Below are positions 4,844 through 7,593 of a DNA stretch of 7,593 nucleotides, piece by piece. Positions within the stretch are counted from its first letter, which is position 1, and every line of letters starts with the position of its first letter. The DNA comes from Nitrospinota bacterium. GTDB lineage: Bacteria > Tectomicrobia > Entotheonellia > J063. The position numbers were made by a program, and so were the translations under genes. The stretch is from assembly GCA_003696125.1 (NCBI GenBank), contig RFHZ01000148.1, positions 1 through 7,593 of the forward strand, given 5' to 3'. The notes beneath the pieces are model-generated. The model did no database searches and was not told where the DNA came from. It saw nothing but the letters and a program-made list of their open reading frames with translations.

Positions 4844-5689
4844 TCACCCCAGCAGGGCATCATAACAAAGCCGGCAGAGGCGGGCGATCAACTGGCCAGC
4901 CACCGTATAACCGGGCATGCCATCAGGCATCTCTTGAGGGACCTGTTCGGTAAAAACGCTGAGGATAAAGAGAGGCTCTTCTCCCTGAAAGATGATCCCG
5001 GCGTCGTTATTATTGCGCCCATCTTGACCCGTCCCGGTCTTGTGAGCCACCTTCGTTCCCCAGGGGAGGTAGGCGGGGAGTCGCCAGCTTAACTTCTGCC
5101 AGCTCAGGATATCGAGGCCGAGTTGACAGAGAGCCGGTGTGCAGCCGAGTCGAGCTGCCACCTCAGGACTCCGGGTTCCCTGCAGGATCAGATCCAGCAA
5201 GAGACCCACGTCGGCCGGGGTCGTTGCATTGACCGCCTCTACCGGGTGATGGCGACCCAGACGGGGTGGGATGCCGTGGCGATGTGTGGTCCCGCGCATA
5301 CCGATCGATTGACAGAAGGCATTGATATAATCGAGCCCCAGCATGTCTACGATGGTACCGGTGCAGGTGTTGTCGCTCACGATGATCATCATGACCAGCG
5401 CATCACGAAACTGAATGGTAAAGCCGGGCTGGAGGTGTTGGAAGGTACCGGACTGGTTGTTCTGATACCTGGCCTGAATGGTTACCGGCTGGTTCAGGGA
5501 CAGCTTCCCTTCGTTCACCGCCTTGAGAGCCGCCATCATGATGGCAATCTTCCGGGTGCTGGCAGAAGGGACGATCACATCACCGTTGCGCTGGGCAACC
5601 TCACCGGTACGGAGATCTTTCAGATACCAGCCGGTATGGAACGGGTAAGAGTCACAGAGTCGATGCAGTTGCTGAACCAAGGCTTCCAT
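4844..5689 (-). CDS. Class A beta-lactamase-like serine hydrolase, probably cytosolic
   Basis: This encodes a 281-residue protein of the serine beta-lactamase/penicillin-binding fold. The three active-site motifs are present in order and at class A spacing: Ser44-Thr-Arg-Lys47 (SxxK, nucleophile and base), Ser105-Asp-Asn107 (SDN) and Lys217-Thr-Gly219 (KTG). The omega-loop region (about 134-160) keeps the terminal ATTP segment (155-158). By ungapped comparison with TEM, however, the position of the deacylating Glu166 falls on Pro141 and that of Asn170 on Gly145; the only Glu nearby is Glu151. True beta-lactamase activity is therefore doubtful, and a peptidase, esterase or penicillin-binding role is possible. 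The N-terminus (MEALVQQLHRLCDSYPF) is not a signal peptide, and the protein has at least seven Cys, which suits the cytoplasm. The start is firm because AAAGGAGGA lies 5 nt upstream. The gene is transcribed away from galT and converges on the kinase gene. What is certain is the fold family; the activity is inferred. Confidence 0.87.
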   Translation of the reverse strand: MEALVQQLHRLCDSYPFHTGWYLKDLRTGEVAQRNGDVIVPSASTRKIAIMMAALKAVNEGKLSLNQPVTIQARYQNNQSGTFQHLQPGFTIQFRDALVMMIIVSDNTCTGTIVDMLGLDYINAFCQSIGMRGTTHRHGIPPRLGRHHPVEAVNATTPADVGLLLDLILQGTRSPEVAARLGCTPALCQLGLDILSWQKLSWRLPAYLPWGTKVAHKTGTGQDGRNNNDAGIIFQGEEPLFILSVFTEQVPQEMPDGMPGYTVAGQLIARLCRLCYDALLG

Positions 5690-6959: not shown

Positions 6960-7592
6960 TTAGTCCTTGTGTCTCTCCTTCCGGACCTCTTTCACCGCCT
7001 GGGCGGCATCAAGGAGTCCGGCCCCCTGGGCTTCCACAGGCTCTCCCAGATCCATTGCGGTCTTTTGCAGGATCTGGAGCACATCATCCGGAGTCAGCTC
7101 CGGGTTGACACCGAGAAGAAGGGCGACCACACCGGTGACGTGGGCAGCCGCCTGGCTGGTGCCGCTTGCCGTTCCATAATAAGGGGTGTATTCTATCTGG
7201 CTGCTGTCTGCCCCTTCACTATCTGCCCCTTCGCTGTCTGCCCCTTCACTATCCGCCCCTTCGCTGGCGGCAACAGCATTTCCTGTCACTTCCAGGGAAC
7301 CTGCCGTGGTCATCGTGGAGATGATCGGCTCGGTGCGGGTACCTCCGGGGGCCACCAGATCAACCTCCTCTCCCCGTATGCTGTACGGAGTGACGCGGCC
7401 GTCACCATCGGTTGCCCCCACTCCGATCGTCTCTGCATATCTGGCCGGATACTTTACCTGCTGGACCCCACAGTCCTGACCGCTATCTGCCCCTTCGCTA
7501 TCCGCCCCTTCGCTGTCTGCCCCTTCACTCTGTCCGATATACGTATCGGAGTTTCCGGCCGAAGCCACCATCACCACGCCTGCTCCATAGAG
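6960..7592 (-). CDS. Subtilisin-family (S8) serine protease, 5' partial, with SEGAD repeats
   Basis: This is the C-terminal 210 residues of a subtilase; the N-terminal part, with the catalytic Asp and His, lies beyond the right edge. The frame is open to the edge (LYGAGVVMVASAGNSD), so the apparent internal GTG start is not the real one. Visible family marks are the oxyanion-hole Asn in ASAGN (14th visible residue), YPARYAETIGVGATD, DLVAPGG, and the catalytic Ser (codon 7157-7155) in SGTSQAAAHVTGVVALLL. The usual GTSMAxPHV is changed: Gln replaces Met and Ala replaces the normally conserved Pro. The end (LTPDDVLQILQKTAMDLG, GAGLLDAAQAV) is the usual closing helix region of the S8 domain, and no C-terminal extra domain follows. 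Two loops contain SEGAD arrays, described separately. Subtilases are usually exported, but the signal region is not visible. The stop is one base from the galT stop, on the opposite strand. Confidence 0.9.
   Translation of the reverse strand, partial: LYGAGVVMVASAGNSDTYIGQSEGADSEGADSEGADSGQDCGVQQVKYPARYAETIGVGATDGDGRVTPYSIRGEEVDLVAPGGTRTEPIISTMTTAGSLEVTGNAVAASEGADSEGADSEGADSEGADSSQIEYTPYYGTASGTSQAAAHVTGVVALLLGVNPELTPDDVLQILQKTAMDLGEPVEAQGAGLLDAAQAVKEVRKERHKD
7206..7265 (-). repeat. 15-bp tandem repeat, four copies (SEGAD x4)
   Basis: Exactly 60 bp hold four in-frame copies of a 15-bp unit with coding-strand consensus AGYGAAGGGGCRGAY. An extra Ser codon follows. In coding order the units are variants AGC/GCG/GAT, AGT/GCA/GAC, AGC/GCA/GAT, AGT/GCA/GAC; they differ only at synonymous third positions. 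The array sits in the loop before the catalytic-Ser segment of the protease. Confidence 0.95.
7485..7529 (-). repeat. 15-bp tandem repeat, three copies (SEGAD x3)
   Basis: Exactly 45 bp hold three in-frame copies of the same 15-bp unit as at 7206-7265, followed by an extra Ser codon. In coding order the units are AGT/GCA/GAC, AGC/GCG/GAT, AGC/GCA/GAT. The array lies in the loop just after the oxyanion-hole Asn segment (ASAGNSD) of the protease. Confidence 0.95.
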
Positions 7593-7593
7593 C

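Follow-up and report, generated by a model that had tools for sequence, protein, structure and literature searches.

Specificity in subtilisins, which rank among the most thoroughly studied engineered proteases, is set by the loops that line the cleft; the segment right after Asn155 of subtilisin BPN' makes up one wall of the S1 pocket. Repeated DNA lying in frame within coding genes is known from the Rickettsia palindromic elements, which are longer palindromes scattered over unrelated genes. With regard to inserted loops in subtilases, AprV2 of Dichelobacter nodosus carries a loop beside the cleft that is tethered by a disulphide and acts as an exosite (PMC2991261), and the autotransporter subtilase Ssp of Serratia marcescens has extra active-site protrusions, with deletion of its E2 loop nearly abolishing activity (PMC9977779). 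In both enzymes, large substrates are cleaved differently once the loops are changed (PMC2991261, PMC9977779). Here we describe a subtilase gene with two arrays of one pentapeptide repeat, found at the end of a stretch of 7,593 nucleotides that was analysed at its full length and is called the window below.

Results

Two in-frame arrays in one subtilase gene

The open reading frame at 7592-6960 (minus strand) matched Peptidase_S8 (PF00082) in a profile search, with an E-value of 6.7e-24 over profile positions 143-287 of 288 and a score of 85.1 bits, well above the curated cut-off of 21.8. It encodes the C-terminal half of the catalytic domain (6960..7592, minus), the N-terminal half with the Asp and His being missing because the contig, C458, stops at 7593. 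Aligning the gene with its paralogues and with subtilisin BPN' identified the codon for the oxyanion-hole Asn (VASAGN, equivalent to Asn155 of BPN'; 7551..7553, minus) as well as that for the catalytic Ser (SGTSQAAAHV; 7155..7157, minus), and in the complete paralogues all four residues, i.e. the Asp/His/Ser triad and the oxyanion Asn, are present. By every testable feature of its sequence, the window gene is a subtilase. Elsewhere in the window, 4844-5689 (minus) encodes a protein of the Beta-lactamase2 family (PF13354, E 3.7e-51), either a serine beta-lactamase or a related enzyme that interacts with penicillin.

Seven perfect units of AGYGAAGGGGCRGAY were found on the minus strand, three in array 1 (7485-7529, between the oxyanion Asn and KYPARY) and four in array 2 (7206-7265, before the catalytic Ser), each unit encoding SEGAD. 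Allowing up to three mismatches there were nine matches in the window against 1.75 expected, a number reached by none of 200 shuffles, and both arrays were also detected by TRF and lie in frame within the open reading frame. Array 1 starts 8 residues after the oxyanion Asn, array 2 stops 17 residues ahead of the catalytic Ser, and 219 bp separate the two. A first-pass annotation of this DNA, which had placed three and four SEGAD units in one S8 subtilase, some 220 bp apart, just after the Asn and just before the Ser, was thus confirmed. In a profile alignment array 1 corresponds to about residues 158-165 of BPN' and array 2 to about residues 209-214, and subtilisins BPN' and E have loops at both places, which supports the suggestion in that annotation of insertions into two loops beside the active site; by homology, the arrays should lie near it. 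Array 1 is followed by a Cys (SGQDC; 7470..7472, minus) that falls in a conserved Cys alignment column and is the only Cys of the reading frame. The flanks of array 2 are non-repetitive (AGSLEVTGNAVAA and SSQIEYTPYY) and absent from every other paralogue, and array 2 itself was seen in the window gene only, among all paralogues and relatives aligned.

The repeat is confined to S8 genes and is clade-limited

The source metagenome-assembled genome (MAG) consists of 990 contigs, 4.18 Mb in total, with 8% contamination. Throughout this MAG, tandem copies of the SEGAD DNA unit occurred only in C458 and C692, and a wider pattern, (S/G)EG(A/G)(D/A), added C192, C200 and C231, again solely in S8 genes, together with one match in C163 that reads as chance. 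Three units in a row gave 18 overlapping matches in the MAG, every one of them in an S8 gene, and none in 385 other genomes; the SEGAD form was absent from IMG/VR viral contigs. A scan of genome_contigs across many phyla yielded 61 S8 homologues with a readable loop, all 61 with short loops lacking the repeats, and in the best matches of 386 genomes only the source MAG and one relative, G004, aligned over the repeat part of the query. The repeat loop is a real, unusual and clade-limited feature. In the open-licence literature, which gives weak evidence on this point, we found no report of a subtilase with tandem repeats in the loop after the oxyanion Asn.

A paralogue family built around a pentapeptide loop

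The MAG encodes about nine S8 paralogues (PF00082 scores of 94-171 bits) with arrays of SEGAD, SEGGD or GEGAA in the post-Asn loop, and in all those reaching this loop the tandem pentapeptides follow the oxyanion Asn and precede the YPARYPE strand. Signal peptides are visible in the paralogue sequences. C692 holds the 5' part of a gene almost identical to the window gene, and C192 another family member, cut within the loop. The ends of C231 and C200 overlap over 169 bp at 97% identity and, if joined there, give six S8 genes in tandem (loci L028, L027) with strictly alternating arrays in the order GEGAA, SEGGD, GEGAA, SEGGD, GEGAA and SEGGD, the last gene also having a C-terminal RTX domain. 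This cluster is followed by a Cache-HAMP histidine kinase gene. In one of its genes, C231d, a 2-bp deletion in the last unit produces a frameshift just after the array (L028:4528-4541, approximate); the gene may be a pseudogene or a strain variant, or the deletion an error.

Three layouts of the loop could be distinguished. The first reads C-xIPA followed by five SEGGD units and then a Cys, with the second unit replaced by SIGAT in two genes; the second is GAS-[GEGAA]2-4-GTGCAS-[GEGAA]3-SGGGC; the third, in C692, is [SEGAD]4-SRFCVSTAA-[SEGAD]3-SGQDC. In C200a, C231b and C692 alike, three units make up the second sub-array. A Cys follows the array in every paralogue reaching that point, and in C200a-c, C231b-c, C692 and G004 two Cys enclose the array or a part of it; in the window gene the partner Cys seen in C692 is absent. 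G004, a genome from another family within this class, encodes a subtilase of 37% identity in which SGGDD units lie between two Cys in the same loop. Its four units are identical in DNA (TCCGGTGGGGATGAC), a freshly homogenised array, and unlike the window unit at that level. As the paralogues and G004 fill the same loop and 61 other subtilases lack repeats there, array 1 is, judging by these alignments, a family trait and not a new event.

The pentapeptide appears to be under selection

Units of the same gene differ from one another solely at third codon positions, a pattern of silent variation seen across ten gene copies. Counting units chosen by exact peptide and leaving out diverged edge units, we found at least 47 minimal synonymous changes and no replacements, whereas under neutrality the silent fraction would be 0.24 (0.33 for transitions). 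Some changes in this count are common to alleles and paralogues, and about 20 silent ones remain when every unit type is counted a single time. SIGAT, common to C200b and C231c, is the sole internal unit that breaks the rule. Since the units in the arrays differ only synonymously, selection appears, as read from the codons, to act on the pentapeptide. In the C231/C200 cluster, units of one type differ about equally within a gene and between genes, which argues that the cluster arrays are old; gene-specific homogenisation within the cluster was unsupported by the same comparison. Paralogue trees gave no resolved branching, and we claim no order of unit change.

Array 2 as a probable copy of array DNA

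The unit haplotypes read a-b-c in array 1 and b-a-c-a in array 2 of the window gene, and a-b-d-b-[SRFCVSTAA]-e-b-c in C692. The two arrays of the window gene thereby share haplotypes a, b and c, in agreement with the first-pass description of one DNA-level unit in both places, and because these haplotypes are silent, array 2 is explained by copying of DNA rather than by convergence. Of the two arrays it alone is a new event, and its most likely source is array 1, either in this gene or in an allele. The flanks of array 2 (GCCGCC before, CAG after) agreed with those of the second C692 sub-array at 9 of 12 bases (P 0.004), a modest resemblance in a comparison picked after inspecting the data; it is suggestive only, and array 2 may be a copy of a C692-type second sub-array plus its edges. 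One deletion between b units would convert the C692 arrangement into array 1 of the window gene, removing the partner Cys, and thus fits the two sequences. The overlap of the window gene with C692 covers 113 bp at 94.7%, similar to the C231/C200 contig-end overlap, and the two may be strain alleles of one locus. The array length in either of them could also be an assembly product.

A flexible loop predicted on the modelled fold

For the complete paralogue C231c, an AF2 model based on 56 sequences had a mean pLDDT of 84.7, against 46.8 for one from an 8-sequence alignment, and exceeded 90 over most of the catalytic core. The array loop, residues 300-331, had pLDDT values of 34-43 and is best read as flexible, being predicted to be disordered. 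The best Foldseek match was pro-subtilisin E, which together with the subtilisins constitutes the nearest solved structures.

Regulatory signals and neighbouring genes

A c-di-GMP-I-GGC riboswitch (RF03167; L063:1026-1116, minus; 68.1 bits against a gathering threshold of 59) lies upstream of the C192 subtilase, and no second one was found in the genome. The subtilases of C192 and C692 are both preceded by TAAA-N15/16-GCCGATAA, which we take to be the sigma-28 (FliA) consensus, and the C192 site (N15) precedes the riboswitch. TAAA-N14-16-GCCGATAA occurred eight times in the genome versus zero times for the reversed pattern (L078-L085), with subtilases, a response-regulator protein, a secreted NHL-type protein and others encoded downstream, and a FliA homologue is encoded on C729 (283 bits). 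In the window, a FliA-like site with one mismatch, TCAA-N16-GCCGATAA (2067-2094), lies about 60 bp upstream of a GAF-histidine kinase gene at 2152. Genes for family-5 solute-binding proteins, 51% identical to each other, adjoin the repeat-loop subtilases of C192 and G004 (L063:1179-4597 and L065:2879-3730, respectively). This setting suggests that extracellular proteolysis may be tied to lifestyle switching and peptide uptake.

Discussion

We consider it fairly probable, taking all parts jointly, that these genes form a family with a repeat-built loop, in which array 1 is old and selected, array 2 was copied, and the loop serves as an apron at the rim of the cleft. The evolutionary part, with an old repeat-built loop and one recent copy into a second loop, is well supported. 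Array 1 would be an old insertion kept through selection on its peptide, its length shifting via slippage or recombination between near-identical units, and array 2 would have arisen when a piece of array DNA was copied into another loop of the same gene. For the function we infer a flexible, Gly-rich and mostly acidic apron that edges the substrate cleft and, in most members, is probably closed by a disulphide; it would tune the access of bulky or charged substrates to the site, and paralogues carrying different arrays would act as a set for extracellular proteolysis. That the window gene has lost the partner Cys argues against an essential disulphide.

The same arrays could instead be tolerated filler, i.e. 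slippage-prone 15-bp repeats that keep the frame and gather harmlessly in a surface loop. Such an origin would agree with the lack of assigned structure in the AF2 model, with paralogues that differ in unit sequence and number, and with the position of array 2 in another tolerant loop. However, it sits poorly with silent-only variation in ten gene copies, a second sub-array constant at three units in three genes, the conserved Cys after the array and the filling of the same loop in another family, and we find it unlikely. A calcium-binding insert, whose Asp, Glu and Gly would bind metal as in RTX repeats and become ordered upon secretion, would account for the Gly- and Asp-rich character of SEGGD, SEGAD and SGGDD, and true RTX repeats (PF00353, E 2.3e-48) do occur at the C-terminus of C200b. 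Nonetheless that terminus gave the only RTX match: as members of the GGxGxDxUx nonapeptide class, the window reading frame and the loops had to be rejected by the profile. GEGAA units in the same loop moreover have one acidic residue per five and no Asp. The first-pass view of the SEGAD units as acidic is supported, and they are Gly-rich as well; since the GEGAA units carry one charge each, a charge or calcium role cannot be uniform across the family. We regard calcium binding as quite improbable. No Pfam match to the pentapeptide repeat proteins (A(D/N)LXX solenoids) was obtained for the window or the paralogues.

An origin of array 2, or of the short array 1, in the assembly of mixed strains is of similarly low probability. 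Contigs do end at or near arrays in C458, C692, C231/C200 and C192, and their end overlaps are 95-97% identical, but array 2 has non-repetitive flanks of its own, where a collapse would have joined flanks already known. Least probable by far is the dispersed, gene-invading minisatellite put forward in the first-pass annotation, comparable to the Rickettsia elements. It drew on the presence of one DNA unit in frame at two places of a gene and on a unit said to be largely free of stops in six frames. Five frames are indeed open, whereas the sixth has 2-4 stops, and because five or six frames stay open in 96% of 15-mers shuffled at constant composition, this property is uninformative on mobility. 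A search of the whole MAG placed tandem copies in five contigs, exclusively in S8 genes apart from one chance-like match, and 385 other genomes had none; this restriction removes the gene-invading reading; array 1 is also common to the paralogues and a distant relative. An element of the Rickettsia palindromic type was likewise rejected, the 15-bp unit being neither a palindrome nor otherwise self-complementary and having no copies in unrelated genes.

If the repeat-loop reading of the family holds, it would illustrate how enzymes can acquire and remodel active-site insertions by simple means, here a selected pentapeptide loop, a unit swapped between lineages and its copying to a second loop. 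The repeats are then best read as an unusual way to build and change the rim of an enzyme with no mobile element, and the family offers ready material for testing loop length against specificity. One may go further, rather speculatively and with low expectation, and picture a replaceable repeat cassette as a specificity rim, in which purifying selection would hold the peptide, slippage or recombination would change the number of units, and the cassette could be copied from the S1-side loop to a second loop; the alternating cluster would supply the cell with a rapidly changing repertoire of secreted proteases, of which c-di-GMP and FliA would control at least one.

Compared with known systems, the window unit shares with the Rickettsia palindromic elements the presence of repeated DNA in frame within a coding gene, and differs in being limited to one gene family. 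RTX repeats (PF00353) are similarly short, Gly- and Asp-rich and in tandem in secreted proteases, but their units have nine residues and form C-terminal domains, whereas the loop units have five and lie within the catalytic domain. The catalytic core, propeptide and fold are like those of subtilisins BPN' and E (S8A; 3whi, 1sbt; Foldseek E 1.9e-34, profile E 6.5e-68), whereas the BPN' loops after the Asn and before Ser221 are short and repeat-free, in place of the 15-50 residues of pentapeptide units seen here. With AprV2 the family shares an inserted loop on the cleft side of a subtilase; the disulphide of the repeat loop is putative and cannot form in the window gene, and the I2 loop of AprV2 (82-102) is non-repetitive and sits between beta1 and alpha2 rather than behind the oxyanion Asn (PMC2991261). 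The protrusions of Ssp are structured hairpins and loops with no tandem repeats (PMC9977779). By analogy, the repeat loop perhaps works like the exosite loop of AprV2 or the protrusions of Ssp.
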